The notes under the pieces were generated by a model that saw nothing but the letters and a program-made list of their open reading frames with translations, was not told the origin of the DNA and ran no database searches. A program made the translations under genes and the position numbers. This document shows positions 10,952-53,236 of a stretch of 64,000 nt of DNA, piece by piece. This stretch comes from Cellulomonas cellasea (GTDB lineage Bacteria > Actinomycetota > Actinomycetes > Actinomycetales > Cellulomonadaceae): NCBI RefSeq assembly GCF_006538745.1, contig NZ_BJLR01000026.1:1-64000 (forward strand). Direction: 5' to 3'. Position 1 is the stretch's first letter, and every line of letters starts with the position of its first letter.

Positions 10952-11614
10952 GACCCGCAGGTCGCGCGGACCGTGCACGCCCTCGACACGCACGAGCTCG
11001 ATGTCGCTCGTCGCGCTGGGCCCGCTGATCCAGGTGAGCGGCCGATCCGGGTGCGCCTCGAGCAGGCGCACGGCCTCCGGGACCGAGCCGACGACCTGGT
11101 CGGCCCGCACGACGCACACGTGCCGGTCCGGGACGAGGGTCAGGACGCGCCGGCCCTGCCCCGGCCCGGCGTCGAGCACGATCGTCCCGGTGTCGGCGAC
11201 GGCGACCCGGCAGCCCGTGACCACGGCGTCCGTCCGGTCGAGCGCGGCGGCACCGAGCGGCCGCCCGGGCTCGTCGGCCAGCACGCTCGCCCCGCCGACC
11301 CTGACCGCGTCGACCCACGCCTCCGGCAGCCCGTGCGGGACGGCCACGGACGCGGCGCCGGCGAGCTCGCGCGCCACGGTCGCCGCGACGTCGTCCGGCC
11401 CGCACCGCGTGACCCGCGCCCGGTAGTCGAGGAGCCGGTGCTCGAGCAGGTCGCACGCGGCCACGGAGCCCGGCGCGGTGCCCGTTGCGACCCGGTACGC
11501 GCGCGGCACGTGGACGGCGCGGGGCCCGCCGGGCACGGGGGACGCGGGCTCCCCGTCCGGCCCCCGGCCGAGCGCCGCCCGCACCGCGGCGAGCACCTCC
11601 TCGCGCGCGGTCAC
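10934..11614 (-). CDS. lutC: Lactate utilization protein C
   Basis: This 226-residue protein belongs to the LutC/YkgG family, a subunit of the LutABC complex that oxidises L-lactate to pyruvate. Conserved stretches include the ADTGTIVLDAGPGQGRR segment and the SATSDIELVRVEGVHGP ending that marks the family. The GTG start overlaps the lutB stop (GTGA), the pattern also seen between lutB and lutA; an upstream ATG 13 codons earlier would overlap lutB much more and is less likely. It is the last gene of the rhamnose-lactate operon. Its last codons contain one copy of the 14-bp repeat that continues past the stop, hinting that the 3' end has been duplicated. Confidence 0.9.
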   Translation of the reverse strand: MTAREEVLAAVRAALGRGPDGEPASPVPGGPRAVHVPRAYRVATGTAPGSVAACDLLEHRLLDYRARVTRCGPDDVAATVARELAGAASVAVPHGLPEAWVDAVRVGGASVLADEPGRPLGAAALDRTDAVVTGCRVAVADTGTIVLDAGPGQGRRVLTLVPDRHVCVVRADQVVGSVPEAVRLLEAHPDRPLTWISGPSATSDIELVRVEGVHGPRDLRVVLVGP

Positions 11615-13113
11615 GGCCGTCCCCGCCCGTCGGTGCGCCGGGCCCGCGCCCACGCGTCACGGAACGACCGCACGGGCAGCGCCGGCAGGTCGCGCCCGGC
11701 CGTCCACAGCGAGCCCGGCCACGGCAGCCGGCGGACGCGGCGACCGCCGAGCACGCGGCCCGCGAGCGCGGACGCCCGCAGCGCCCAGCGGAACCGCGGT
11801 CCGGAGGACAGCACCGCGGCCGCGGCACCCATCGCGGCGCCCGCGGCGGTCGGGCGGCGCGGCGCGCCGTCGTGCAGCGCCCGGTCGCGCAGGTGCACGA
11901 GCGCCGTGGGGATGTCGATCTTGACCGGGCAGGCGTCGTAGCACGCGCCGCACAGCGTGCTCGCGAACGGCAGCGACGCGGTGGCCTCGTCGGCGTCGTC
12001 GAGCCCGAGGAGCTGTGGGGTCAGGATCGCGCCGATCGGGCCCGGGTACACCGAGCCGTACGCGTGCCCGCCGGTGCGCTCGTAGACCGGGCACACGTTG
12101 AGGCACGCCGAGCAGCGGATGCAGTGCAGCGCCTGGCGCCCGATCTCGTCGGCGAGCGCGCGGGTGCGGCCGTTGTCGAGCAGCACGAGGTGGAAGTCCT
12201 GCGGGCCGTCGCCGGGGGTCACGCCGGTCCACATCGTCGTGTACGGGTTCATGCGCTCGCCGGTCGAGGAGCGGGGCAGGAGCTGGAGGAAGACCTCGAG
12301 GTCACGGAAGTCGGGGAGCACCTTCTCGATGCCCATCACGGTGACGAGGGTCCGGGGCAGCGTGAGGCACATGCGGCCGTTGCCCTCGGACTCCACGACC
12401 GCGACGGTGCCGGTCCCGGCGATCGCGAGGTTCGCGCCGCTGATCGCGACGTCGGCCCGCAGGAACAGCGCCCGCAGGTGGGCCCGGGCGGCCATGGCGA
12501 GCGCGGCCGGCTCGTTGGTCAGCCCCGCGGGGGCGTCGGGCATCCGGGTGCGGAAGACGTCGCGGATCTCGTCGCGGTTGCGGTGGATCGCGGGCACCAG
12601 GATGTGCGACGGCCGGTCCCCCGCGAGCTGCACGATGAGCTCGGCGAGGTCGGTCTCGTGCGCCGCGATGCCCTCCGCCTCGAGGTGCTCGTTGAGGCCG
12701 ATCTCCTGGGTCGCCATCGACTTGACCTTGACGACCTCGCGCGCGCCGGCCGCCCGCACGAGGTCGGTCACGATGCGGTTCGCCTCCGCGGCGTCGCGGG
12801 CCCAGTGCACCGTCCCGCCGCGCGCGGTGACGGTGACCTCGAGCTGCTCGAGCAGCTCGGGGAGCCGCTCCATGGCGTCGGCCTTGATCGCGGCCCCGGC
12901 GTCGCGCAGCGCCTCCCAGTCGGGCAGCTCGGCGGTGACCGCGACGCGCTTGTCGCGGATCGTGCGCGTCGCGCGGCGCAGGTTGGTGCGCAGCTGGGCG
13001 TCCCCGAGCGTCCCGCGGGCCGCCTCGGGGAACGTCGGGCCCCAGCGGAGCGGGTCGAGCGGCTCGGCCGCGGGCTTCGGCGGCACGCCCGGCATGCCGA
13101 GGTAGGTGCTCAC
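11611..13113 (-). CDS. lutB: Lactate utilization iron-sulfur protein B
   Basis: The 500-residue protein is the LutB/YkgF subunit of the lactate-oxidising complex. Two ferredoxin-like 4Fe-4S motifs lie near the C-terminus: CIRCSACLNVCPVY (from residue 331) and CGACYDACPVKID (from about 388). The N-terminal two thirds hold the LUD domain, with VVKVKSMATQEIGLNEHLE and AISGANLAIAGTGTVAVVESEGNGRM as landmarks. The complex is cytoplasmic or membrane-associated and passes electrons on to the respiratory chain. GTG start and stop both overlap neighbours by four bases, so lutA, lutB and lutC should be made in fixed ratio. Confidence 0.93.
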   Translation of the reverse strand: MSTYLGMPGVPPKPAAEPLDPLRWGPTFPEAARGTLGDAQLRTNLRRATRTIRDKRVAVTAELPDWEALRDAGAAIKADAMERLPELLEQLEVTVTARGGTVHWARDAAEANRIVTDLVRAAGAREVVKVKSMATQEIGLNEHLEAEGIAAHETDLAELIVQLAGDRPSHILVPAIHRNRDEIRDVFRTRMPDAPAGLTNEPAALAMAARAHLRALFLRADVAISGANLAIAGTGTVAVVESEGNGRMCLTLPRTLVTVMGIEKVLPDFRDLEVFLQLLPRSSTGERMNPYTTMWTGVTPGDGPQDFHLVLLDNGRTRALADEIGRQALHCIRCSACLNVCPVYERTGGHAYGSVYPGPIGAILTPQLLGLDDADEATASLPFASTLCGACYDACPVKIDIPTALVHLRDRALHDGAPRRPTAAGAAMGAAAAVLSSGPRFRWALRASALAGRVLGGRRVRRLPWPGSLWTAGRDLPALPVRSFRDAWARARRTDGRGRP

Positions 13114-13907
13114 GAGGCGCTCCGGGCTGCTGCGGGGCGCGTGCCCGGGGGTCGCCACGGCTCTCCGCGCGTCGCGGCCAGGATCTCCGCGAGGTGGACC
13201 GCGCGGACCCCCGCTCCCCGCCGCGAGAGCGCGCCGTCGATGTTCATCAGGCACGACCAGTCCCCCGCCGTCACGACCTCGGCGCCTGAGGCCTGCACGC
13301 AGTCGGCCTTGTCGGAGACCATCGCGACCGACGTTGCGGAGTTCTTGAGCGCGAACGTGCCGCCGAACCCGCAGCACTGGTCGGCGTCGGGCAGGTCGAC
13401 GAGCCGGAGCCCGTCGACCTGCCCCAGGAGCCGCGTGGGCCGGTCGCCGACCCGGAGCATCCGCAGCGAGTGGCACGTGGGGTGGTACGTCACGGTGTGC
13501 GGGAACCACGCCCCCACGTCGGTCACGCCGAGCACGTCGACGAGCAGCTCCGACAGCTCGTACGTGCGCGCGGCGACCCGCTCGGCGGCGACGGCCAGCC
13601 GCTCGTCGCCCGCCTGCCGCGCGACGCGGGCCTGCTGGTGCCGGGTCGACCCGACGCACGACCCCGAGGGGGCGACGACCGCGTCCCACTCCCCCGCGAC
13701 GACCGGCCAGAACGCCCGCACGTGGTTGCGCACGACCGGCTCGGCCTGCGCCGGGTAGCCGGAGTTCACGTGCATCTGCCCGCAGCACGCCTGACCGGGC
13801 GGCACGACGACCTCGTGGCCCAGGCGCTCGAGCAGGCGCACCGTCGCCGCGGCGGCGTGCGGGAACAGGCCGTCGACGAGGCACGTCGTGAACAGGGCGA
13901 TGCGCAT
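13110..13907 (-). CDS. lutA: Lactate utilization protein A (CCG-domain protein)
   Basis: This 265-residue protein is the LutA/YkgE subunit, related to GlcF and heterodisulfide reductase subunits. Two cysteine-rich CCG motifs are present, QACCGQMHVNSGY and DQCCGFGGTF, which in this family bind a non-cubane iron-sulfur centre. The ATG is supported by GGAAGGGG upstream. Only 27 bases separate it from rhaD, so lactate oxidation genes are read from the rhamnose promoter. That is metabolically sensible: rhamnose breakdown yields lactaldehyde, which the fused dehydrogenase upstream can oxidise to lactate. Confidence 0.92.
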   Translation of the reverse strand: MRIALFTTCLVDGLFPHAAAATVRLLERLGHEVVVPPGQACCGQMHVNSGYPAQAEPVVRNHVRAFWPVVAGEWDAVVAPSGSCVGSTRHQQARVARQAGDERLAVAAERVAARTYELSELLVDVLGVTDVGAWFPHTVTYHPTCHSLRMLRVGDRPTRLLGQVDGLRLVDLPDADQCCGFGGTFALKNSATSVAMVSDKADCVQASGAEVVTAGDWSCLMNIDGALSRRGAGVRAVHLAEILAATRGEPWRPPGTRPAAARSAS

Positions 13908-13934
13908 GCGGTCCCCTTCCGGGCGGACGTCGGC

Positions 13935-14762
13935 TCAGTGGACCCAGGGCGAGACGATCCCGAACTGGGCGGCGACCTCGGAGATCTCCGCGTCCGTGAG
14001 CCCCTCCGCGGCACCGCCCGCGACGATGTTCATGTACTCGTACCGCGCGCCCGTCTCGGCGTACTCGATCCGGTCGACCGCGCGCGTCACAGAGACGTCC
14101 GAGCGCGCCATGATGCCGTGCTTGGACCACAGCACGATCTGGTGCTCCCGGAGCCCCTCGACGTTGGCCTTCATCATCCCCTCGGACCCGGGGACCAGGA
14201 ACGGCAGGACCCCGATCCCCTCGGACAGGGCGACGATACTCTCCGGCTCCCAGCGAAGCACGCGCGCGTTGAACGCCGCGGTGTCGCGGTACGCCGGGAT
14301 GTGCGAGAGGTACGTCAGGTGCATCGGCTGGGCGTGCACGACGGCGTGGAGGTCGAGCCCGCGGCGGGCGACGTGGTCCTGGTGCACGGCGAGGTGGGAG
14401 TTGAGCTCGCTCGTGAGCTGCTCGAAGAGCCGGCGCGGCGAGGTGAACAGCGTCGCCGTCAGGCCGTCCCCGTGCACCCGGAGCGCCCCGACGTTGGCCT
14501 CGGGGTCCTGGTGGATCTGGCGCAGCCGCCGGCCCGAGCCGGTGACGAGCAGCGTGCGGCCCGCGAGCGCGGGGACGGGGAGCGGCAGCGCGACGTCCTC
14601 CTGCTGCGGGAAGCGGTGGCGCAGCTCGACGTCCCACCCGGCGTACACGGAGATGTTGCCGGCGCCTGCCTCGCTCGCGTCGATGTCGCTGATGCGGCTC
14701 CCGGCGGCGCCCATCGAGCGCAGCAGCTCGTCGAGCTCGGGGAACGGTCCTGCGTCGGGCAT
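13935..14762 (-). CDS. rhaD: Rhamnulose-1-phosphate aldolase, class II
   Basis: The 275-residue protein is a class II aldolase of the RhaD type, splitting L-rhamnulose 1-phosphate into dihydroxyacetone phosphate and L-lactaldehyde with a metal ion. GAGNISVY near residue 33 and the SKHGIMARS segment (metal-binding His) are typical. The VVHAQPMHL segment aligns with the His-Cys-His of Escherichia coli RhaD but reads His-Ala-Gln, so the second ligand may differ or the metal may be held otherwise. A second aldolase for the same step lies two genes upstream as part of a fusion, making this enzyme apparently redundant. Confidence 0.88.
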   Translation of the reverse strand: MPDAGPFPELDELLRSMGAAGSRISDIDASEAGAGNISVYAGWDVELRHRFPQQEDVALPLPVPALAGRTLLVTGSGRRLRQIHQDPEANVGALRVHGDGLTATLFTSPRRLFEQLTSELNSHLAVHQDHVARRGLDLHAVVHAQPMHLTYLSHIPAYRDTAAFNARVLRWEPESIVALSEGIGVLPFLVPGSEGMMKANVEGLREHQIVLWSKHGIMARSDVSVTRAVDRIEYAETGARYEYMNIVAGGAAEGLTDAEISEVAAQFGIVSPWVH

Positions 14763-14795
14763 GTCGGATCCTTCGTCGGTCGGCCGGGGCTGGGC

Positions 14796-16283
14796 TCAGC
14801 CCCGGAGGCTCTTCTCGGCGCGCGCCCAGGCGGCGTGGTCGCCGGACGGCTCGTAGCGGCGGGTGGGCGTCGAGGCGCGCACGACGGCCCGCATCGCCGC
14901 GAGGTCGTCCCCGACGTCGCCCGCGGCGGCGGCCTGGACGAGCAGGTTGCCCGTCGCCGTCCCCTCGGCGGGGCCGGCCTCGACGGGCAGCCCGGTCGCG
15001 TCCGCGGTGAGCCGGCACAGCAGCGCGTTGCGCGCGCCGCCGCCCACGAGGTGCACGACGGCGACGTCGCGCCCCGCGAGCCCGGCCGCCTGGCGCACCG
15101 CGCGGGCGTGGGCCAGCGCGAGCGAGTCGAGGACGACGCGCACGACCTCGGCGGGCCCGCTCGGGGCCGGCTGTCCCGTGGCGCGCGCCACGTCGGCGAT
15201 CCGCGCGGGGACGTCCCCGGGGGCGGCGAACGCGGGGTCGTCGACGTCGACGACGCACCGCAGCCCCGGCACGTCCGCGGCCTGGCGGAGCAGCGGCTCG
15301 AGCTCCTGCGGGCGGCCCTGCGCGGCCCACGTCGCGAGCGCCTGCTCGAGCAGCCAGAGGCCGGTGACGTTGCGCAGGTAGCGCACGGTCCCGTGCACGC
15401 CGAGCTCGTTCGTGAAGTTCGCGGCGCGGCTCGCCTCGGTGAGGACGGGCGCGTCGAGCTCGAGGCCGACGAGCGACCACGTGCCCGACGAGATCCAGGC
15501 CGCGTCCCGGCCCGCGACGGGGACCGCCGCGACCGCCGACGCGGTGTCGTGCGAGCCGACCGCGACGACGGTGGTGCCGTCGAGGCCGAGCGCACGGCCC
15601 ACCTCGGGACGCACGGCGCCGACGACGGAGCCGGGCGCGACCAGGCGCGGCAGGAGCGCGGCGACGTCGACGCCCGCGAGCGCCGAGGCGGCGGCCGTGA
15701 CCTCGGTGCTCCACGTCCGGGTCGTCGCGTCGAGCAGACCGGTCGTCGAGGCGTTGGTCAGCTCCGCGACCTGCTCCCCCGTGAGCCAGGACGCGAGCAG
15801 GTCCGGGATCAGCAGCGCTCGCCGTGCGGCGGCGAGCTGCGCCGTGCCGGCGGCGGCGACGAGCTGGAAGACGGTGTTGAACGGCTGGAGCTGGACGCCG
15901 GTGAGTGCGTAGTGTCGCTCCGGGGTGATCCGCTCGAACAACCGGCGGGGGGCGTCCGCGGTGCGGGGGTCGCGGTAGTGCACCGGGTTGCCGAGCAGCG
16001 CGCCGTCGGCGTCGAGCAGCCCGTGGTCGACCGCCCAGCCGTCGATCCCGACCGACGTCACCGCGCCGAACCGCCGGGCCGCAGCCGCGAGCCCGTCCTG
16101 CACGCCCGCCCACAGCCGCAGCACGTCCCAGTGCAGCGTCGCCCGCCCCCCCGGCCCGGGCGCGCTGACCGGGACGTTGGGGAACCGCCCGGTCTCCTCC
16201 GTCACGAGCCGGCCCCCCTCGACCCGGCCCGCGATGACCCGCCCGCTCGTGGCGCCGAGGTCGACGGCGACGTAGGTGCGCAC
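14796..16283 (-). CDS. rhaB: Rhamnulokinase
   Basis: This 495-residue FGGY-family sugar kinase phosphorylates L-rhamnulose to its 1-phosphate. The N-terminus has the ATPase fold signature VAVDLGATSGRVI and the catalytic region DGWAVDHGLLD; the C-terminal half has GSHDTASAVAAVP, WISSGTWSLVG and the adenosine-binding VHLVGGGARNALL. The GTG at 16283 was preferred: it lies five bases past the stop of the aldolase-dehydrogenase gene and keeps the family's usual start. It is the third gene of the rha-lut operon. Confidence 0.92.
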   Translation of the reverse strand: MRTYVAVDLGATSGRVIAGRVEGGRLVTEETGRFPNVPVSAPGPGGRATLHWDVLRLWAGVQDGLAAAARRFGAVTSVGIDGWAVDHGLLDADGALLGNPVHYRDPRTADAPRRLFERITPERHYALTGVQLQPFNTVFQLVAAAGTAQLAAARRALLIPDLLASWLTGEQVAELTNASTTGLLDATTRTWSTEVTAAASALAGVDVAALLPRLVAPGSVVGAVRPEVGRALGLDGTTVVAVGSHDTASAVAAVPVAGRDAAWISSGTWSLVGLELDAPVLTEASRAANFTNELGVHGTVRYLRNVTGLWLLEQALATWAAQGRPQELEPLLRQAADVPGLRCVVDVDDPAFAAPGDVPARIADVARATGQPAPSGPAEVVRVVLDSLALAHARAVRQAAGLAGRDVAVVHLVGGGARNALLCRLTADATGLPVEAGPAEGTATGNLLVQAAAAGDVGDDLAAMRAVVRASTPTRRYEPSGDHAAWARAEKSLRG

Positions 16284-43147: not shown

Positions 43148-43153
43148 TACCGT
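43148..43153 (+). promoter_or_regulatory. Likely -10 of the five-gene operon (TACCGT)
   Basis: TACCGT lies 6 bases before the ATG of the SWIM gene with no ribosome-binding site in between, pointing to a leaderless transcript for the whole block. The rest of the divergent spacer shows nothing I can assign. Confidence 0.45.
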
Positions 43154-43159
43154 GACGCC

Positions 43160-44491
43160 ATGCCCCCGCGCTGGACCGTCGAGCAGGCGCTCGCGCTCGC
43201 CCCCGACGCGTCGTCGGCCGCAGCGGGGCGCCGGCTCGCCGCCTCGGGGTCGTGGACCGCGGCCGGTGCGGCGCCGGGCGTCGTGTGGGGGTCGTGCGCG
43301 GGCTCCGGGAAGGTGCCGTACCAGACGGTCGTCGACCTCACCGAGCCCGCGTTCAGCTGCTCGTGCCCGAGCCGGAAGTTCCCGTGCAAGCACGCGCTCG
43401 CGCTGCTCGTGCGGTGGGCGGGCGGCGAGGTGGCGGAGCACGACGAGCCGGCCGACGCCGCGGCGGCGTGGCTCGAGGCCCGGGCAGCCCGTGCCGCCCG
43501 GAGTGCCGAGCGTGCGGAGGCCAGAGCCGAGCGCACGACCACGACGGACCCCCGTCCCGCCGAGCGGCGTGCCGAGCAGCGCGAGCAGCGGGTCTCGGCC
43601 GGCGTCGCCGAGCTCGACCGCTGGCTGCGGGACCAGGTCCGCACCGGTGTGGCGTCCGCGGACACCGCGGGGTACGCGCTGACCGACCCGGTCGCCGCCC
43701 GGCTCGTCGACGCGCAGGCGCCCGGCCTGGCCGGAGCGGTGCGCCGCCTCGCGTCGGTCGCGGCGTCGGGCGAGGGGTGGCCCGGGCGGCTGCTCGAGGA
43801 GCTCGCGCTGGTGCACCTGCTGACGACGGCGCACCGCCGGCTCGCCGAGCTCCCCGCCGACCTCGCGGCCACCGTCCGCACGCGCGTCGGCGCCACCGTG
43901 CGCACCGAGGACGTGCTCGCCGGTCCCCCCGTGCGGGACCGCTGGGACGTCCTCGCGCTGCGGGACTCCTCGGACGGGCGGCTCACGACCCGGCGCGTGC
44001 ACGTGCGCGGCGCCGCGACCGGGCGGGACGCGCTCGTGCTGTCGTTCGCCGGGCCGGGCCACGTGCTCGACGTCTCGCTCGTGCCCGGCACGGCCCTCGA
44101 CGCCGACCTGCACTTCCACCCCGGTGCGCTCGGGCTGCGCGCGGTGGTCGGCGCCCGGCACGGGGAGCCCTGCCCGCTGTCCGCGGTCACGGGCGTCCCC
44201 GTGCGCCACGTGCTCGCGGCGTGGGCGCGCGCCCTCGCGGCCGACCCGTGGACGAGCGACCTGCCCGTGGTGCTCGGGGACGTGCACGTGCTCCCGGCGC
44301 CCGACGGCGCACCGGCCGGCTGGCTCGTCGCGGACACCGCCGGTGACGCGCTCCCGCTCGTGGCGGCGCCCGGGCTCTGGACGGTCCTCGCCGTCTCCGG
44401 CGGGCGTCCCGTGACCCTCGTCGGGGCGCTGACCCCGGGCGGCGTGCGGGCCGAGGCCGTGCTCCCCGACGGCGCGCTGGTGGTCGTGTGA
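43160..44491 (+). CDS. SWIM zinc-finger protein, first gene of the five-gene block
   Basis: The 443-residue protein carries a SWIM domain with ligands Cys67, Cys69, Cys76 and His78 (FSCSCPSRKFPCKHALAL). SWIM fingers bind DNA or proteins. A charged Ala/Arg/Glu-rich helical segment (about 100-150), possibly coiled coil, follows; the rest is a mixed domain with no family I recognise. Upstream extension of the frame to 43013 is rejected because the -10 element lies directly before 43160. It is coupled to the next gene by a GTGA overlap. Proteins with this start occur beside DUF5691, MoxR, DUF5682 and VWA genes in other actinobacteria, but no function has been shown to my knowledge. Confidence 0.85.
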   Translation: MPPRWTVEQALALAPDASSAAAGRRLAASGSWTAAGAAPGVVWGSCAGSGKVPYQTVVDLTEPAFSCSCPSRKFPCKHALALLVRWAGGEVAEHDEPADAAAAWLEARAARAARSAERAEARAERTTTTDPRPAERRAEQREQRVSAGVAELDRWLRDQVRTGVASADTAGYALTDPVAARLVDAQAPGLAGAVRRLASVAASGEGWPGRLLEELALVHLLTTAHRRLAELPADLAATVRTRVGATVRTEDVLAGPPVRDRWDVLALRDSSDGRLTTRRVHVRGAATGRDALVLSFAGPGHVLDVSLVPGTALDADLHFHPGALGLRAVVGARHGEPCPLSAVTGVPVRHVLAAWARALAADPWTSDLPVVLGDVHVLPAPDGAPAGWLVADTAGDALPLVAAPGLWTVLAVSGGRPVTLVGALTPGGVRAEAVLPDGALVVV

Positions 44492-46044
44492 GCACCGGTG
44501 TGCCGGCAGCGCGGCGCGTGCTCGGCTGGGACGACCTCGTCACCGCCGCGCTGCTCGGCGTGGCCCGGCGACCCGTCGACCCCGCGGCGCTCCCCGGGGA
44601 GGTGGGGCGCCTCGCGGGGACCCTCCCCGACGCCGACGCCCCCGGCCGGCTGCTCGACGCGGCGGCGCTGCTCACCACGCTCCGCCGGGCCGGCGGCGGC
44701 CCGCTCCTCGCACCCCCGCCCGGTCCCGCCGCGCCCCCCGAGGCGGCCTCTCCGGTGTCCGCCGCCGGGGGCGCCCGCCTCGCCGCCCTCCTCGCGCGGA
44801 CCGACCCGCTCGCCGAGCGCCTGCTCGACGAGTGGCTCGCTCTCGCCGCCGGTCGCGGCCTCCTCGTCCCGCCCGCGCAGCTACCGCGGCTGCTCGACTG
44901 GGCGAGCGCGCGCGGCGAGCGGGGCGAGGTCCGCCGGGACCGCGCCGAGCGCGTGGCACCCGTGCTCGGGGAGCGGGGACGTTGGCTCGCGCGCCACCGC
45001 ACCGACTGGGCGCCGACGGTCGCACCCGCGCCCGAGCCGGGCGACCTCGGGACGTACGGCACGGCCGCCGAGCGGCGCGACCACCTCCTCGCGGTGCGTC
45101 GGCGCGACCCTGCCGCGGCGCGCGACCTGCTGCTCGCCGCGGACCCGTCGACGCTGCGGGGCGAGGAGCGCGCGCAGCTCTACGGCGTGCTCGCGGACGG
45201 CCTCGGACCCGCCGACGAGGAGCTGCTCGAGCGCGCGCTCGACGACAGCCGCCAGGACGTCCGGACCGCCGCCGCGGCGATGCTCCGGCGGCTGCCCGGG
45301 AGCGAGTTCGCGTCCCGCGCTGCGGCACGCGCCGTCCCGCTCGTGCGCGTCGAGCGACGCCGGCTGCGGCGCGTGCTCGTCGTCGACCTCCCCGAGGTGG
45401 ACCCGGCCCAGCGGGACGACCGGGCGCTGCCGGCCGCACCGTCGGGGACCGGCGCGCGCGTGTGGCTGCTCCTTCACCTCGTCCTGGCCACACCGCTGCG
45501 CACGTGGGAGGAGGCGCTCGCCGCGACGCCCGACGAGCTCGTGGCGCTGCCCGTCGCGGACGACCTGCGCGGCCGGCTGCGCGCGCGCTGGCTCGGCGCC
45601 GCCCGCGACCAGGCCGACGCGGCGTGGGCCCGGGCGCTCCTGCGTGACGCGGACCCGGGCGAGCGGGTCGCGCTCCTCCCGGTGCTCGACGTCCAGGAGC
45701 GGGCCGAGCACGTCGCCGCCGCGGTCGACGCGCTCGCGGAGCAGGGCGGACGCGCGGCGCTCACCCACGTCGACGCGCTGCTCGGCACCTGCCCCCGGCC
45801 CTGGCCGCCCGTCCTGGCAGCAGCGGTGCTCCGCTGGCTCGCCCGCGAGCGCTCGACCGACACCTGGCACGCGGACTGGGCGCTGCGGACCGTCGCGATG
45901 CGGCTGCCGACCGACGCGGCCACCGAGGAGGCCGTGCGGACCGCCGGGCTCGCCCGCGGCGTCGACGACCCGTGGCGGGCGCGCGTGCTGACCGTCGCCG
46001 ACACGCTGCACGACCGACGCCACATGACCGAGGAGCTCCGTTGA
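44488..46044 (+). CDS. DUF5691-like helical protein
   Basis: This 518-residue protein is almost wholly helical, with repeated Leu/Ala-rich amphipathic helices in the style of HEAT repeats (for instance the RQDVRTAAAAMLRRLPGSEF unit near residue 255). WDDLVTAALLGVARRP at the N-terminus is the best family landmark and matches what I recall of DUF5691. It likely acts as a scaffold or adaptor. The GTG start overlaps the SWIM stop and the stop overlaps the TTG start of the ATPase, so its product is probably needed in step with both. No catalytic motif is visible. Confidence 0.78.
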   Translation: MSTGVPAARRVLGWDDLVTAALLGVARRPVDPAALPGEVGRLAGTLPDADAPGRLLDAAALLTTLRRAGGGPLLAPPPGPAAPPEAASPVSAAGGARLAALLARTDPLAERLLDEWLALAAGRGLLVPPAQLPRLLDWASARGERGEVRRDRAERVAPVLGERGRWLARHRTDWAPTVAPAPEPGDLGTYGTAAERRDHLLAVRRRDPAAARDLLLAADPSTLRGEERAQLYGVLADGLGPADEELLERALDDSRQDVRTAAAAMLRRLPGSEFASRAAARAVPLVRVERRRLRRVLVVDLPEVDPAQRDDRALPAAPSGTGARVWLLLHLVLATPLRTWEEALAATPDELVALPVADDLRGRLRARWLGAARDQADAAWARALLRDADPGERVALLPVLDVQERAEHVAAAVDALAEQGGRAALTHVDALLGTCPRPWPPVLAAAVLRWLARERSTDTWHADWALRTVAMRLPTDAATEEAVRTAGLARGVDDPWRARVLTVADTLHDRRHMTEELR

Positions 46045-47168
46045 CCACCACCCCTCAGGCCCCGCTCGCCGACGCGTCCGGGAACGCCGACGCGCTCCTG
46101 CGCCCGCACGCCGAGCAGGCGTTCGCCCACGAGCTCGCGGCGCTCGCGGCCCTCGACGACCGGCCGCGCCCGCCCGCGTGGCTGCTCTCGCCGGGCGCCG
46201 TGGTGACGTACCTGCTCGGCGGCACGCTCGGGGACGGGACCGTCATCACCCCCAAGTACGTGGGGCCGCGCCGGCTCGTCGAGGTCGCGGTCGCGACGCT
46301 CGCGACGGACCGGGCGCTGCTGCTCCTGGGCGTGCCCGGAACCGCCAAGACCTGGGTCAGCGAGCACCTCACGGCCGCGGTCAGCGGCCGCTCGACGCTG
46401 CTCGTCCAGGGCACGTCCGGCACGGGCGAGGACGCCATCCGGTACGGCTGGAACTACGCGCGGCTGCTCGCCGAGGGCCCCACCCCGGCGGCGCTCGTCC
46501 CCTCACCGGTCATGACGGCGATGCGCGAGGCGAAGATCGCGCGCATCGAGGAGCTCACGCGCATCCCGTCCGATGTCCAGGACGCCCTCATCACCGTGCT
46601 GTCCGAGAAGTCGCTGCCGGTCCCCGAGCTCGGCACCGAGGTGCAGGCGGCGAAGGGGTTCAACGTCATCGCGACCGCGAACGACCGCGACCGCGGCGTC
46701 AACGAGCTGTCCTCGGCTCTGCGGCGGCGCTTCAACACCGTCGTCCTCCCGCTGCCCGCGACCGAGCAGGAGGAGGTCGACATCGTCACCCGACGCGTCG
46801 CGCAGCTCGGCGCGGCGCTCGAGCTCCCGCCTGTCCCGGCGGCCGCCGAGGAGATCCGCCGGGTCGTGACGGTGTTCCGCGAGCTGCGCTCGGGCCGGAC
46901 GCTCGACGGGCGGACCACGCTCAAGCAGCCGTCGGGGACGCTCTCGACGGCCGAGGCGATCTCGGTGGTCACCCAAGGGCTCGCGCTCGCGGCGCACTTC
47001 GGCGACGGGACGCTCCAGCCGTCGGACATCGCCGCGGGGATCGTCGGCTCGGTCGTCAAGGACCCCGTCGCCGACCGGGCGGTGTGGTTCGAGTACCTCG
47101 AGGCGGTGGCCCGCGAGCGCGAGGGGTGGCACGAGTTCTACGCCGCGTGCCGCGAGGTCAGCGGATGA
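46041..47168 (+). CDS. MoxR-type AAA+ ATPase
   Basis: The 375-residue ATPase has Walker A GVPGTAKTW at 97-105, a sensor-1 region VIATANDRDRGVNE and an arginine-finger stretch SSALRRRFN. The expected Walker B (hydrophobic residues then Asp-Glu) reads IARIEELTRIP, lacking the Asp but keeping Glu residues, a departure that recurs in this gene neighbourhood as far as I recall. MoxR ATPases usually work with VWA proteins as chaperones that insert metals or remodel complexes; a VWA gene follows two genes on. The TTG start overlaps the previous stop (TTGA) and is supported by GAGGAG upstream; no ATG fits. Confidence 0.88.
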   Translation: MTTTPQAPLADASGNADALLRPHAEQAFAHELAALAALDDRPRPPAWLLSPGAVVTYLLGGTLGDGTVITPKYVGPRRLVEVAVATLATDRALLLLGVPGTAKTWVSEHLTAAVSGRSTLLVQGTSGTGEDAIRYGWNYARLLAEGPTPAALVPSPVMTAMREAKIARIEELTRIPSDVQDALITVLSEKSLPVPELGTEVQAAKGFNVIATANDRDRGVNELSSALRRRFNTVVLPLPATEQEEVDIVTRRVAQLGAALELPPVPAAAEEIRRVVTVFRELRSGRTLDGRTTLKQPSGTLSTAEAISVVTQGLALAAHFGDGTLQPSDIAAGIVGSVVKDPVADRAVWFEYLEAVAREREGWHEFYAACREVSG

Positions 47169-49648
47169 TGGTGGCCACCGCGGCGCACGAGGCGGCGGCG
47201 ACGCCGTCGGACCCCGCGAACGACGAGGGCGCCCCGGTCGTCGAGGTCATGGGCGTGCGGCACCACGGCCCGGGCTCGGCGCGCGCGGTGCGTGCGGCGC
47301 TCGAGCGCCTGCGACCGGACGTCGTGCTCGTCGAGGGCCCCGCCGACGCCGACGCGCTCGCGCCGCTCGCGGGCGACCCGGACCTCGTGCCGCCCGTCGC
47401 GATGCTCGCGTACGCGAACGACGACCCGGCGACGGCCGTCTTCTGGCCGTACGCCGTGTTCTCCCCCGAGTGGCAGGCGCTGCGCTGGGCCGCCCAGCAC
47501 GGCGTGCGGGTCCGGTTCTGCGACCTGCCCTCGGGCGCGGTGCTCGCTCGCGGCGGCGCGGAGGCGGTGTCCGGGCAGCGCCCGGAGACGCTCGAGCCCG
47601 CGGGCGTGGCCGGGCAGCAGCCGGCCACGACGGCAGCGCCCCCACCGGCGGCCGGGCCCGGACAGCCGGAGAGCCTGCGACCGGCGCAAGGACACCGGCC
47701 CGCCGAGGCACCGGGCGGCGCGCACGCCGCGGAGCGCGAGGACCCGTCCGCGGACGACGACACCGAGCCGGAGGACCCGTCTGCGGACGGCGCCGCGGCG
47801 CTGCGGCGCGACCCCGTCGCCGCGCTCGCCGCCGCTGCCGGGTACGACGACCCCGAGCGATGGTGGGACGACGTCGTCGAGCACCGGCTCGACTCCCCCA
47901 CCCCGTTCCCGGTGCTGACCGAGGCGATGGCCGAGCTGCGCTGGTCGGCGGAGCCGCTGCCGCCCGCGCGCCAGCTGCACGAGGACCGCCGCGAGGCCCA
48001 CATGCGCCAGGCGCTGCGCGCCGAGCTGCGTGCGGGTGCGCGGCGCGTCGCGGTCGTCTGCGGCGCGTGGCACGCGCCGGCCCTCGACGGCAGGCTCCCC
48101 CCGGCCGCGGCCGACGTGCGCGTCCTGCGCGGACTGCCGCGGCGGGCCACGTCGGTCACGTGGGTGCCGTGGACGTCCTCGCGGCTCGCGACGGCGTCGA
48201 GCTACGGCGCGGGCATCACGTCTCCCGGCTGGTACCACCACCTGTTCACGGCCCCGGACCACGTCGTCGCGCGGTGGCTCACGCGCGTCGCGGGCGTGCT
48301 CCGCGCGCAGGACCTGCCGGTCTCGTCGGCGCACGTCATCGAGGCGGTCCGCCTCGCCGACGCGCTCGCGACCCTGCGCGGGCGCCCCCTCGCGGGGCTC
48401 GACGAGGTGACCGAGGCGACGCGCGCGGTGCTGTGCGAGGGCGACGACGCGGTGCTCGCGCTGGTCACGGCCCGCCTCGTCGTCGGCGAGTCGCTCGGCA
48501 CCGTGCCCGAGTCGGTGCCGACGGTCCCGCTCGCGAGCGACCTGCGCGCGACCGCACGGCGGCTGCGGCTCAAGGTCGAGCCGCTGGCCCGCACGCTCGA
48601 GCTCGACGTGCGGAAGGACACCGACCGCGAGCGCTCGCGCCTCCTGCACCGCCTGCGCGTCCTCGACGTCGACTGGGGCGTGCCGGCCGCGGCGACCCGC
48701 CGCAGCACCGGGACGTTCCGCGAGCCGTGGACGCTCGTGTGGCGGCCCGAGCTCGCGGTCGCGGTCATCGAGGCGGCGCTGTGGGGCACGACGGTCGAGG
48801 CGGCCGCGGCTGCGCGTCTCGGCGCCGCTGCGGGGCCGGCGTCGCTCGCGGGGCTGACCCGGCTCGTCGAGGACGCTCTGCTCGCCGACCTGCCCGCCGC
48901 GATGACGCCGCTCCTGGCCGCGCTGGACGCACGCGCCGCGCACGACGTCGACGTGGTGCACCTCATGACGGCGCTGCCCCCGCTGGTCCGCGCGCACCGC
49001 TACCCCGGCGTGCGCGGCACCGACGTCGAGCAGGTCGGGCGGGTCGCGGACGCGCTGCTCGTGCGGGTCTGCGCGGCGTTGCCGTCGGCGGTCACGGCGC
49101 TCGACGACGAGGCCGCACGCGAGCTGCGCACGGCGCTCGACGCGGTGCACGACGCGGTGCTGCTGCGGGAGGAGCCCGCCGGCGCCGGCCTCTGGTGGGC
49201 GGCGCTCGCGTCGCTCGCCGACCGCGGGGACGTCTCGGGGCTGCTCGCGGGGCGCGCGACCCGGCTGCTGCGCGACGGCGGACGCCTCGATGACGCGCCC
49301 GTCCGCCTCGCTCGGGCCCTGTCGGTCGGCGCCCCCGCACCGGCGAAGGCGGCCTGGGTCGAGGGGTTCCTCGACGGCGGCGGGCTGCTGCTGGCCCGCG
49401 ACGACGAGCTCCTCACCGTCCTCGACACGTGGCTCGCGGGCCTGCCGGAGCGGGACTTCACGGACGTGCTCCCGCTGCTGCGCCGCACGTTCGGTGCCCT
49501 CTCGGCGCCCGAGCGGCGCGCGGTGAGGCAGGCCGCGGCGCACGGCACCCGGCGTCCCGCCGGCCCCGCGGAACCCACCGGCCTCGACGAGGAACGGGCG
49601 CTGCCCGCGCTGCGCACCGTCACGACGATCCTGGGAGGGCACCCGTGA
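47165..49648 (+). CDS. DUF5682 protein with TraB/EreA-like motifs
   Basis: This 827-residue protein opens with GVRHHGPGSARAVRAALE (30-47) and VVLVEGPADADAL (53-65), followed later by REAHMRQALRAEL and VAVVCGAWHAPAL. This order of His-containing and Glu-containing motifs strongly recalls TraB/PrgY and EreA-like proteins (GTxH, VxVE, R-YM, VVGxGH), so a hydrolase-like fold is inferred. An Ala/Pro/Asp-rich insert (about 130-212, with EDPSAD twice) interrupts the N-terminal domain. The C-terminal half (from about 370) is helical and unassigned. Two consecutive ATG codons are possible starts. Function is unknown. Confidence 0.8.
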   Translation: MMVATAAHEAAATPSDPANDEGAPVVEVMGVRHHGPGSARAVRAALERLRPDVVLVEGPADADALAPLAGDPDLVPPVAMLAYANDDPATAVFWPYAVFSPEWQALRWAAQHGVRVRFCDLPSGAVLARGGAEAVSGQRPETLEPAGVAGQQPATTAAPPPAAGPGQPESLRPAQGHRPAEAPGGAHAAEREDPSADDDTEPEDPSADGAAALRRDPVAALAAAAGYDDPERWWDDVVEHRLDSPTPFPVLTEAMAELRWSAEPLPPARQLHEDRREAHMRQALRAELRAGARRVAVVCGAWHAPALDGRLPPAAADVRVLRGLPRRATSVTWVPWTSSRLATASSYGAGITSPGWYHHLFTAPDHVVARWLTRVAGVLRAQDLPVSSAHVIEAVRLADALATLRGRPLAGLDEVTEATRAVLCEGDDAVLALVTARLVVGESLGTVPESVPTVPLASDLRATARRLRLKVEPLARTLELDVRKDTDRERSRLLHRLRVLDVDWGVPAAATRRSTGTFREPWTLVWRPELAVAVIEAALWGTTVEAAAAARLGAAAGPASLAGLTRLVEDALLADLPAAMTPLLAALDARAAHDVDVVHLMTALPPLVRAHRYPGVRGTDVEQVGRVADALLVRVCAALPSAVTALDDEAARELRTALDAVHDAVLLREEPAGAGLWWAALASLADRGDVSGLLAGRATRLLRDGGRLDDAPVRLARALSVGAPAPAKAAWVEGFLDGGGLLLARDDELLTVLDTWLAGLPERDFTDVLPLLRRTFGALSAPERRAVRQAAAHGTRRPAGPAEPTGLDEERALPALRTVTTILGGHP

Positions 49649-50841
49649 GCGCACCGGGCACACCCGTCGACGAGGCGGGGCGGCTGCGACGGTGGCGCCT
49701 CGTGCTCGGCGCCGCGGGCGAGCCCGGGGCGGCGCCGCTGCAGGGCCCCGACGCCGCGATGGACGCCGCCCTCGCGGCGCTCTACGACGCCGACGACCGT
49801 GGGGGGCCGCGTCCGGGCGGCCCGCGCGGTGCCGGACTCGGCGCGTCGGCGCCCCGGGTCGCCCGCTGGCTCGGAGACATCCGCACGTACTTCCCGAGCA
49901 CCGTGGTGCAGGTCATGCAGCGTGACGCCGTGGACCGCCTCCACCTGCGCCAGCTGCTGCTCGAGCCGGAGCTGCTCAGCGCCGTCGAGCCCGACGTGAG
50001 CCTCGTGGGGACGCTGCTCTCGCTCAACCGGGTCATGCCCGAGACGACCCGGGCCACGGCACGCCAGGTCGTCGCGACGGTGGTCGCGGAGGTCGAGCGG
50101 CGGGTCGCCGACCGGACGCGGTCGGCCGTCGCGGGAGCGCTGGACCGGACGAGCCGCACGCACCGCCCCCACCTGCGGGACGTCGACTGGGACGCGACCA
50201 TCCGCGCCAACCTGCGGCACTACCTCCCCGAGCACCGCACGGTCGTGCCCGAGCGCCTCGTGGGCCACGGCCGCCGCCGCCAGGTCGTCGCGCGCGACGT
50301 CGTGCTCGCGATCGACCAGTCGGGCTCGATGGCGGAGTCGGTCGTGTACGCCTCGGTGTTCGGTGCGGTGCTCGCCTCGATGCGCGCGCTGTCGACGTCG
50401 CTCGTGGTCTTCGACACCGAGGTCGTCGACCTCACCCCGCTGCTCGCCGACCCGGTCGACGTGCTGTTCGGGACCCAGCTCGGCGGCGGCACGGACATCA
50501 ATCGTGCGGTCGCCTACTGCCAGGGGCTCGTCCGCCGGCCGGCCGACACGCTGCTCGTGCTGGTCAGCGACCTGTACGAGGGCGGGGTGCGCGACGAGCT
50601 GCTGCGCCGGGTGGCCGACCTCACCGCGGCCGGCGTCCAGGTCGTCGTGCTGCTGGCGCTGTCGGACTCCGGTGCGCCGTCGTTCGACCGGGAGAACGCG
50701 GCGGCGCTCGTCGAGCTCGGGGTGCCCGCGTTCGCGTGCACGCCCGACGCGTTCCCCGACCTGCTCGCGGTCGCGCTGGCGAAGGGCGACGTCGGTGCGT
50801 GGGCGGACCGGCAGCTCACACCCGGGGTGTCGAGGGGCTGA
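49645..50841 (+). CDS. VWA-domain protein, last gene of the five-gene block
   Basis: The 398-residue protein has a helical N-terminal half (about 1-205) and a VWA domain (about 215-385) with an intact metal-binding MIDAS: DQSGS at 224-228, the Thr of GGGTDIN at about 283 and the Asp of VSDLYEGG. It lacks signal peptide and membrane helices, so it acts in the cytoplasm, presumably on or with the MoxR ATPase. VLAIDQSGSMAESVVYASVF and FDTEVVDLTPLL place it with MoxR-linked VWA proteins of the CoxE type. The GTG start overlaps the DUF5682 stop. A strong terminator follows. Confidence 0.87.
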   Translation: MSAPGTPVDEAGRLRRWRLVLGAAGEPGAAPLQGPDAAMDAALAALYDADDRGGPRPGGPRGAGLGASAPRVARWLGDIRTYFPSTVVQVMQRDAVDRLHLRQLLLEPELLSAVEPDVSLVGTLLSLNRVMPETTRATARQVVATVVAEVERRVADRTRSAVAGALDRTSRTHRPHLRDVDWDATIRANLRHYLPEHRTVVPERLVGHGRRRQVVARDVVLAIDQSGSMAESVVYASVFGAVLASMRALSTSLVVFDTEVVDLTPLLADPVDVLFGTQLGGGTDINRAVAYCQGLVRRPADTLLVLVSDLYEGGVRDELLRRVADLTAAGVQVVVLLALSDSGAPSFDRENAAALVELGVPAFACTPDAFPDLLAVALAKGDVGAWADRQLTPGVSRG

Positions 50842-50920: not shown

Positions 50921-50951
50921 CCCCGGCCGCCCTGGTGCAGGGCGGCCGGGG
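50921..50951. terminator. Bidirectional terminator after the five-gene block
   Basis: A 13-bp perfect stem (50921-50933 with 50939-50951) and 5-base loop lie between the convergent VWA and subtilase genes. Confidence 0.8.
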
Positions 50952-50964
50952 ACCACGGGTCAGG

Positions 50965-52839
50965 TCACCAGCTCAGCTGGATCGTGTACGCACCGGCGCT
51001 CGCGCCGGTCCCACCGCGGTAGTACGTGGTGCGGGCGTAGTACGTCGCCGTCGTCGTGCCGGTGTTGCGCACCGACGCCGTGTCGATCCGGCCCGCACCG
51101 AGCGTGCTGCTCGTGAGCGGCTGGCTCGACGAGCCGTACAGGTACAGGTCGTAGTCGGCCGTGCTCGAGCTGGGCGTGAGCCTCGCGGTGAGCGTCGCCC
51201 CGGGCGGGACGGCGACGGCGAAGTAGTCCGTGTCGGTGCTCGAGCCGATCGTGGCGGACAGGGTGCGCGCCGACGCGACGGCGTTCGCCGCGCTGCGCGT
51301 GTTGTTCGGCTCGACCTCGCTCGTGGCGACCGGCGTCGTCGTCGGGGTCGGCGTAGGCGTCGGGGTCGGCGTCGGGTTCGTCCCGCCGGTGGCGGCCCGG
51401 ACCGCGGCGTTCGCGTCCACCATGCCCGCGCCGCAGCTCGTGCACGACGCGACGAACGGCCGGGCGGTCGACTTCAGCGTGCTCTCGACCTGGTCGGGCG
51501 TCAGCGCCGGGTTGGCGGCGAGCACGAGCGCGGCGGCGGCGGCGACGTGCGGCGTCGCCATCGACGTGCCCTGGTAGTACGCGTAGGTGTCGGCGCCCGG
51601 GCCGGTGGCGCCCGAGTTGAGCGTCGAGAGGATGCCGCGCGTCTGGCCCCCGCTCATCTCGCCCCCCGGGGCCGCGATGTCGACGAGCGTCCCGTAGTTC
51701 GAGTACGACGCGCGCGCCCCCGTGGGTCCGTACGCGGCGACAGCGATGACGCCCGAGCAGTTGGCGGGGCTCGACGTCGAGACGTTCGTGCGCTCGTTGC
51801 CCGCCGCCACGACGACGACCGCGCCGTTCGCGCGGGCGGCCGTGATGGCCCGCTGGCTCGTCGTGTCGCAGGCGCCGCTGCCGCCGAGCGACAGGTTGAG
51901 CACGCGTGCGCGGTTCGGGTTCGCCGCGACGCCGCTCACGGTGCCGCCGGACGCCCAGACCATCGCGTCGGCGATGTCGGAGGTGTAGCCGCCGCACGTC
52001 CCCAGCACGCGGAGCGGGAGGATCTTCGACTCGGGCGCCCCGCCCGCGACGCCGGCACCGTTGCCCGCGACCGCCGCGATCGTGCCCGCCACGTGCGTGC
52101 CGTGCCAGCTCGAGGAGCTCGCCGGCGTCCCCGCGCCGCACTCGCCGGCGGCGGTGTGGTCGCCGGGGTCCCTCGCGTCGGCGTCCCGGCCGTTCCCGTC
52201 GTTGGACACCTGGGTGTCGCTGATCATGTCGTACCCGCCGACGACTGCGGACGCGAGGTCGGCGTGCGGGCGGAAGCCGGTGTCGATCACCGCGACGTTG
52301 ACGCCGGCACCTCGGGTCACGTCCCACGCGCCGAGCACGCCGATGCCGACGTCGCTCGTCTGGAGGCCCCACAGGCTCGACCAGCTGGGGTCGTTCGGGG
52401 CGGCGGCGGACGCGGTGAGGATCCGGTCGGGCTCGGCGTACTCGACCCCGGGGTCCTCGGCGGCGACCTGGGCGGCGAGCGCCTCGACGTCGGCGAGCGG
52501 GAGCGGCGCGGACAGCGCCCAGACCTGCGCGCCCTGAGCGGTGTCGCGCACGTACTCGACGGCAGCTCCCCGCGCCTGGGCGGCCCGCGCGATGCGGTCC
52601 TGCCGGGCGGACTGGACGTCGCTCCCGGCGCTCGCCCCGAGCGGCTGCGTGCGGTAGCGCACGATGATCCGGTCCGTGCCGGTGCTGCCCGCCGGGGCCT
52701 GCACGGCGGGTGCCGATGCGTCCGGTGCCGTCCCCTCGGAGGTCGCGGCCACGGCGTGCGGGGCCAGCGCCCAGGACGACGCCAGGAGGACGCCGGCGGC
52801 GACGGCGGCCACGGGGCGCCGCGTGAAGGTGTGCTGCAT
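50965..52839 (-). CDS. Secreted subtilisin-like serine protease (S8)
   Basis: This 624-residue protease has a signal peptide (1-32, ending AVAA), a propeptide (about 55-140, IIVRYRT to PDRILTA), the catalytic domain (about 150-470) with Asp186 (VIDTG), His246 (HGTHVAG), oxyanion Asn348 (AAGN) and Ser426 (GTSMATPH), a Pro-Thr linker (about 485-500) and a C-terminal pre-peptidase domain (about 510-624, SEVEPNNT to YTIQLSW). It should be exported and autoprocessed to degrade proteins outside the cell. The ATG at 52839 begins the signal peptide; the frame's longer reading starts inside the promoter. Four Cys in the catalytic domain could form disulfides. Confidence 0.93.
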   Translation of the reverse strand: MQHTFTRRPVAAVAAGVLLASSWALAPHAVAATSEGTAPDASAPAVQAPAGSTGTDRIIVRYRTQPLGASAGSDVQSARQDRIARAAQARGAAVEYVRDTAQGAQVWALSAPLPLADVEALAAQVAAEDPGVEYAEPDRILTASAAAPNDPSWSSLWGLQTSDVGIGVLGAWDVTRGAGVNVAVIDTGFRPHADLASAVVGGYDMISDTQVSNDGNGRDADARDPGDHTAAGECGAGTPASSSSWHGTHVAGTIAAVAGNGAGVAGGAPESKILPLRVLGTCGGYTSDIADAMVWASGGTVSGVAANPNRARVLNLSLGGSGACDTTSQRAITAARANGAVVVVAAGNERTNVSTSSPANCSGVIAVAAYGPTGARASYSNYGTLVDIAAPGGEMSGGQTRGILSTLNSGATGPGADTYAYYQGTSMATPHVAAAAALVLAANPALTPDQVESTLKSTARPFVASCTSCGAGMVDANAAVRAATGGTNPTPTPTPTPTPTTTPVATSEVEPNNTRSAANAVASARTLSATIGSSTDTDYFAVAVPPGATLTARLTPSSSTADYDLYLYGSSSQPLTSSTLGAGRIDTASVRNTGTTTATYYARTTYYRGGTGASAGAYTIQLSW

Positions 52840-53236
52840 GAAGGATCTGCCTCTCGGCTGCGGGGTGCGGTCGTCGCGTCGGCCGCGCGTCCCGAGGGTC
52901 CGGGACGCCGCTCGGGGCGACGTGCGACTCACGGTAAACACGGCTATGACTGCGGTCAAGGGCGTAAGTTACTCTGCGGTACAACGGGCGTTCTCCCGCC
53001 TGTCGGCGCACCGACCGAGCCGCTGGCGCGACCCTCGGCGCGCCCGGGGCCGGGTCCGGGCCTCCCGCTCCGACGCGGCCCGGGAGGCGCCTCCGGCGCA
53101 GGGCCGCCGTCCTCCCGGAGCCGTGCGCACGCGGCCCGGATGCGCCGCGGCGTGCACCCCCCGACGATGGCCGGGTGCGTCGGGACACGTCGCGCACGCA
53201 CCGGGGACCCGAGGGTCCCGCGCGGGAGGGGTCGAG
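52840..53236. other. 397-base divergent spacer
   Basis: The spacer between the subtilase and the ThDP enzyme holds the subtilase promoter on its left. Bases 52960-53236 show no promoter or hairpin that I can name with confidence; no small gene is supported. A GGGAGGGG stretch (53224-53231) serves as ribosome-binding site for the ThDP enzyme. Confidence 0.6.
52931..52959 (-). promoter_or_regulatory. Promoter of the subtilase gene
   Basis: On the minus strand, TTGACC (52954-52959) and TACCGT (52931-52936) are spaced by exactly 17 bases, a close match to housekeeping sigma-factor promoters. Transcription would begin near 52924, leaving a leader of roughly 85 bases before the ATG. Confidence 0.7.

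Follow-up and report, generated by a model that had tools for sequence, protein, structure and literature searches.

What do the five consecutive genes at positions 43160 to 50841 of a 64,000-nucleotide stretch of Cellulomonas cellasea DNA (contig NZ_BJLR01000026.1; hereafter the window) do together? They lie on the plus strand and encode, in this order, a SWIM zinc-finger protein, a DUF5691 protein, a MoxR-type AAA+ ATPase, a DUF5682 protein and a CoxE-like VWA protein, all of which exceeded their Pfam cut-offs. A first interpretation made without database searches (the sequence-only reading) had proposed a self-contained remodelling machine containing a possible hydrolase. In our analysis the products of the five genes probably work as one protein-remodelling machine driven by ATP. 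We give a probability of roughly 0.4 to the more specific reading of a YehL-type MoxR/VWA remodelling ATPase that has a TIKI-type hydrolase as a subunit of its own and acts in a cytosolic stress setting. The parts list (MoxR AAA+ ATPase, VWA protein with its metal-ion-dependent adhesion site (MIDAS), and SWIM finger, with their motifs intact), the linkage of the genes and their fusions can be read directly from the sequence; a hexamer, a client and a cleavage step are the parts of the machine model that we infer.

As an operon the block is of a known kind, because YehL counts among the seven MoxR subfamilies that have been named (available text of PMC3893208) and the families of the set are already annotated in public records. 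The MoxR-DUF5682-VWA core is homologous to Escherichia coli YehL-YehM-YehP, which the sequence-only reading had missed. In the E. coli set (yehI-yehK-yehL-yehM-yehP-yehQ) the core order is that of the window, with identities of 41% for MoxR (over 360 positions of YehL), 25% for DUF5682 and 38% for VWA (YehP), and the SWIM gene yehQ and the DUF4132 gene yehI adjoin yehL, yehM and yehP. Unlike in the window, however, YehI replaces DUF5691, and the SWIM gene is the last of the set instead of the first; PF18944 had no match in the E. coli control genome. A match to yehLMPQ was found in 5301 of 5426 complete E. coli genomes, with at least 80% coverage in 5162. These genes are dispensable: strain DGF-298 carries a 29-kb deletion that includes them (PMC10652928, in the text available). 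No functional study of the set was found in the literature searched, subscription journals being mostly outside that coverage, which agrees with what the sequence-only reading had said.

On sequence grounds, the five-gene set is a real unit, despite overlaps between its genes that are ordinary. Relatives were taken as the 80 best from a scan with one genome per species, and all five families were present in 70 of them, from several phyla. Among these, 38 were collinear in the window's order and two (L077 and L088) were collinear with the printed order disturbed by long open frames; 17 had the SWIM gene on the opposite strand, and 12 had SWIM and DUF5691 in one open frame. One more collinear locus, from Terrimonas (L113), carries the full set plus a DUF4132 relative as a sixth gene (12418-15354), joining both accessory kinds. 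The remaining ten comprise three cyanobacterial loci (L071, L091 and L098), one that is broken or cut (L120) and six cut by contig ends. The cyanobacterial loci contain DUF5682, one of them with VWA; the other genes were absent from the DNA examined and may lie elsewhere. In five loci of one family (L138-L142) the DUF5691 open frame is shortened to about 310-350 amino acids.

The same linkage was observed when whole genomes were considered. DUF5682 was present in 17 of 61 Cellulomonadaceae genomes and DUF5691 over cut-off in five, each beside DUF5682; one further genome held a DUF5691 fragment below cut-off. In a sample of 198 Actinomycetota genomes, DUF5682 was found in 17 and DUF5691 in 19, of which 16 were over cut-off, and all 16 had DUF5682 at most 3.5 kb away; the three below cut-off were fragments, in genomes without DUF5682. 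The families are not mostly found apart, which is what the sequence-only reading needed. The set was also found on plasmids of Deinococcus, Rhizobium, Hymenobacter and Methylosinus, with flanks unrelated between these four annotated loci; together with the 70 of 80 relatives, this bears out the claim that it is self-contained. In the Hymenobacter plasmid locus the SWIM motif lies within the DUF5691 protein itself, and no VWA gene is listed for the Methylosinus one in the gene table of the plasmids, which is incomplete. We rejected a sixth partner, since the 25 most frequent flanking families among the neighbours listed were common only to related actinobacteria. L078, L085-L087 and other Streptomyces loci share their flanks, which look like sucC/sucD on one side and a B12-binding mutase small subunit on the other.

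At the sequence level, the MoxR-DUF5682-VWA core is shared by at least four subtypes that differ in their accessory genes. Type A is the arrangement in the window (SWIM, DUF5691, MoxR, DUF5682, VWA), and type B is that of E. coli (yehI-L-M-P-Q). Besides type A, the Cellulomonadaceae have 14 DUF5682 loci arranged as DUF4132-MoxR-DUF5682-VWA; two of these loci share a genome with a type A locus. In each of the 14 and in E. coli (yehQ), an open frame with a CxCx5CxH motif was found past the VWA gene, as it was in two further loci of the same arrangement, L133 and L136. Type C, from five genomes of one actinobacterial genus, consists of DUF4132 (an assignment confirmed by Pfam in L131 only), a protein of 1632-1779 amino acids, MoxR, a DUF5682::VWA fusion and a CxCx5CxH protein of 616-656 amino acids. 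In these loci (L128-L132) the long protein is encoded between the short DUF4132 gene and the MoxR gene, e.g. at 1360-6699 of L131, and the two of the five that were scanned had no Pfam match over cut-off. Type D, from two genomes of the same genus, has the order VWA-MoxR-DUF5682, preceded by a gene with no Pfam match in the one of two scanned.

Two different pairs are therefore fused in nature, SWIM::DUF5691 in 12 of 80 relatives and DUF5682::VWA in the five type C loci, and such fusions are a usual sign that suggests contact between the products. The distances of MoxR, DUF5682 and VWA were correlated at 0.96-0.97 over all types and at 0.89-0.91 in type A (59 of 114 loci). Since these three proteins keep step across the subtypes, the core resembles a single engine whose accessory parts can be swapped. 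As far as our literature searches show, neither the fusions nor the exchange of DUF5691 for DUF4132 has been described.

The sequence motifs of MoxR and VWA are intact. Residue conservation was counted against 113 other loci (114 in all). The MoxR protein (46041..47168; 375 amino acids; AAA_5, 131.5 bits, E 2.8e-38) has a Walker A motif at residues 97-103, a pair of glutamates (170-171) at the place of Walker B and a TAN motif at 212-214. Residues 97, 99-101, 103, 170-171 and 212-214 were the same in 113 of 113 loci, as were 14 of the 16 motif residues considered; the other two, R229 and A102, were kept in 112 and 111. By similarity and neighbourhood the protein can be assigned to the YehL subfamily, and its sensor and arginines are intact along with Walker A and Walker B. 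The VWA protein (49645..50841; 398 amino acids; VWA_CoxE, 177 bits, E 4.9e-52) carries the DxSxS, T and D residues of a CoxE-like MIDAS adaptor at D224-x-S226-x-S228, T283 and D309. The first three were kept in 112 of 113 loci (one gap) and D309 in all 113, and position 283 was T in 109 and N in four. The MoxR/VWA pairing put forward in the sequence-only reading is supported.

The two accessory proteins precede this pair. The SWIM protein (43160..44491; 443 amino acids; Pfam SWIM 27.4 bits against a cut-off of 19.6, E 2.4e-06) has the zinc-finger motif CxCx6CxH at residues 67-78, invariant in five aligned sequences. The DUF5691 protein (44488..46044; 518 amino acids; 365.4 bits, E 1e-108) is a probable scaffold or adaptor with a putative HEAT-like repeat segment, and a PDB sequence search with it gave nothing credible. 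We also considered DUF5691 as a DUF4132 homologue and rejected this, as hhalign aligned a single HEAT-like segment with a probability of 1.9%.

The component that would distinguish this machine is DUF5682 (47165..49648; 827 amino acids; 888.5 bits, E 4.9e-267). It is predicted to consist of an N-terminal alpha/beta domain of the TIKI/TraB/ChaN/erythromycin-esterase type (47228..48172, about residues 22-336) and a C-terminal alpha-solenoid. The AlphaFold2 mean predicted local distance difference test score was 84.8 for the full model. Matches to the alpha-solenoid (residues about 454-794) dominated the whole-protein fold search, and for this reason the N-terminal domain was folded separately (mean score 79.4). 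The resulting model has a core of parallel beta-sheet flanked by helices on either side, as expected of the TIKI fold. Candidate functional residues are H33, E57, R276, E277 and H303, of which H33, E57 and H303 are invariant and placed at the matching elements of the predicted fold; a second glutamate at the RRSP position (the 2His/2Glu pattern) was not found in this domain. A possible hydrolase in DUF5682, as the sequence-only reading had supposed, is thus favoured by the predicted fold.

The sequence similarity of the N-terminal domain to the superfamily is near or below detection, a Pfam scan of DUF5682 found no TIKI, TraB, ChaN or Ere family match, and a PDB sequence search with DUF5682 gave no hits. 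The hhalign matches were weak (TraB, E 0.0043 and probability 8%; ChaN, E 0.011 and 3.8%), with five unrelated control profiles at E 0.083-0.63. A TraB-like composite motif, drawn up after inspection of the DUF5682 sequences and so supportive at best, was found in 108 of 114 DUF5682 proteins, 0 of 4099 control open reading frames and 3 of 11 TraB proteins. In the Foldseek search with the N-terminal model, ChaN was the best named match; the top three rows (a Tetrahymena complex IV subunit) stayed unnamed, as searching the PDB by sequence with a single TraB protein returned no hit. Unlike the known members of the superfamily, which it resembles in the predicted fold and in the predicted places of His, Glu and His, this domain forms one protein with a large alpha-solenoid and is linked to an AAA+ machine. 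A TIKI-like domain in DUF5682 appears undescribed within the literature searched.

Putting these parts together, we propose that a MoxR hexamer ring would bind its client via the VWA protein, an adaptor gripping with its MIDAS metal, by analogy with NorQ/NorD. SWIM and DUF5691 would form one accessory unit that recruits the client or serves as its scaffold. Once the ring has exposed the client, DUF5682, which is fused to VWA in type C, would hydrolyse a bond in it, a peptide bond being the simplest assumption. The accessory layer changes between types, with DUF5691 in A and WGR/DUF4132 in B, which would make the core a generic engine with different client readers. NorQ/NorD, CoxD/CoxE and RavA/ViaA likewise pair an AAA+ ATPase with a MIDAS VWA partner; to our knowledge these pairs lack DUF5682, SWIM or DUF5691 partners. 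MoxR/VWA pairs are known already, but we know of none with its own TIKI-type hydrolase. A bolder version, which we regard as doubtful, is that the set is an ATP-dependent protease of a new class, in which a MoxR/VWA ring is coupled to TIKI-type DUF5682 and has exchangeable client readers (SWIM + DUF5691, or WGR/DUF4132 + SWIM). The class would span several phyla and be near-core in E. coli. If our favoured reading holds, a gene set carried by most E. coli would become testable through a named fold, candidate catalytic residues and partner contacts, and DUF5682, DUF5691 and DUF4132 would gain a common functional frame.

The machine most likely acts in a cytosolic response to stress, which may be linked to DNA damage. 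In the available texts, molR, a neighbour of the yeh genes, is among the listed LexA-regulated genes (PMC11039860, PMC4576408), molR1 deletion shows a synthetic growth defect with lepA (PMC4245954), and a DUF4132 gene of D. radiodurans goes up on DdrO depletion (PMC8533742). These are weak hints to DNA damage or molybdate use. Several points count against the reading that we favour: the DNA-damage hints concern DUF4132/WGR genes and not the type A set; no SOS box (up to one mismatch) was found in 72 scanned type A loci of the 80, in the 300 bases before the first open frame, the true start of which is uncertain in some loci; and the sequence and Foldseek support for the TIKI-like domain is weak. 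With 0 of 72 loci carrying a box, SOS-box control of type A was rejected. The CTG-N10-CAG core was found just before a start only in E. coli yehF, seven mismatches from the 20-mer consensus.

A rather unlikely alternative is that the set is a maturation chaperone resembling NorQ/NorD or CoxD/CoxE, in which MoxR and VWA would open a client enzyme for a metal or cofactor and the TIKI-like domain would bind or carry the cofactor instead of cleaving. It would fit VWA_CoxE as the top Pfam match of the VWA protein, the haem-binding ChaN as best named match of the N-terminal model, and the name of E. coli molR, given for molybdate use (1990 paper title; table of PMC4245954). NorQD remodels cNOR for iron insertion, for which the VWA MIDAS is required (PMC9976466, in the text available). 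However, the 25 most frequent flanking families include no cofactor-enzyme gene that accompanies the operon in distant lineages. Furthermore, no molybdoenzyme or CO dehydrogenase is listed in the four plasmid loci (in a gene table that is incomplete), and moeA/moeB of D. radiodurans did not change along with the DUF4132 genes in the data available. The genes listed beside E. coli yeh include no CO dehydrogenase gene.

An anti-phage conflict system, whose machine would free a hydrolase effector on infection, is improbable, and the set does not look like mobile phage defence. MoxR-vWA pairs form the core of ternary conflict systems (VMAP, iSTAND, FtsH, beta-propeller; PMC7159879, in the text available), which resemble the window in combining MoxR, vWA and others in an operon. 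Type A is patchy (5 of 61 Cellulomonadaceae genomes), and its MoxR is just over the bpMoxR cut-off (27.5 against 27 bits). However, the third component in the window is DUF5682 with its predicted TIKI-like domain: among the five proteins Pfam gave no FtsH or STAND partner over cut-off, nor a beta-propeller on the 398-residue VWA protein at E up to 1. For the VMAP type, the Pfam scan of the five proteins listed no VMAP component. PADLOC 2023 returned weak ATPase-only matches (E 0.029 or worse), and no relative was confirmed in a scan of viral contigs. DUF5682 was found in 16 of 72,556 plasmids, every one typed non-mobilizable, and in one of 50,697 phage records, unannotated; the flanks shared among Streptomyces and the coverage in 5162 of 5426 E. 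coli genomes also speak against such a system. The record MT835988.1, a 14-kb unannotated 'Bacteriophage sp.' from faeces that is possibly a misfiled bacterial contig, carries a DUF5682 relative at 11406-12782.

The four junctions, read directly, are stop-start overlaps as first described: GTGA at 44488-44491, TTGA at 46041-46044, ATGA at 47165-47168 (with a second ATG at 47168) and GTGA at 49645-49648. The base rate was taken from 448,535 bases of the window's genome in 22 stretches, with a simple codon-usage gene caller. An in-frame NTGA overlap was possible in 81 of 238 tandem same-strand pairs (34%), so the chance of four in a row is 0.34^4, about 1.3%; this run was the longest in the 22 stretches, the next being three. 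Overlaps of this sort are an ordinary feature of the genome, and the run of four is a mildly rare case of it. Of the 38 collinear relatives, 8 keep all four -4 overlaps, while 20 of the 80 loci (19 from Streptomyces, one from Actinacidiphila) have SWIM or DUF5691 on the opposite strand. On these counts the overlaps do not show a stoichiometric complex, contrary to the sequence-only reading, and with a base rate of 34% we rejected them as proof of one. That the genes are instead a loose string, packed by genome compaction and acting apart, is very improbable: common overlaps, opposite-strand genes and the three cyanobacterial loci without some neighbours in the DNA examined would agree with it, but the 16 of 16 linkage, the fusions and the gene order kept across phyla do not.

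Upstream of the SWIM gene, a TANNNT-type -10 hexamer, TACCGT (43148..43153, plus strand), stands 6 nt before the ATG at 43160, in the leaderless arrangement noted at first sight. The stretch containing it is identical in the congener locus L028, and the hexamer is the putative promoter of the block. Behind the VWA gene, the terminator had been described as 13 bp long; the hairpin is there (50921..50951, plus strand) as a perfect stem of 14 bp without U-tract (-50.6 kcal/mol for a 71-nt stretch, z -4.31), and it is a probable terminator. Just past it ends a converging minus-strand gene at 50965-52959, presumably coding for a secreted subtilisin-type protease.
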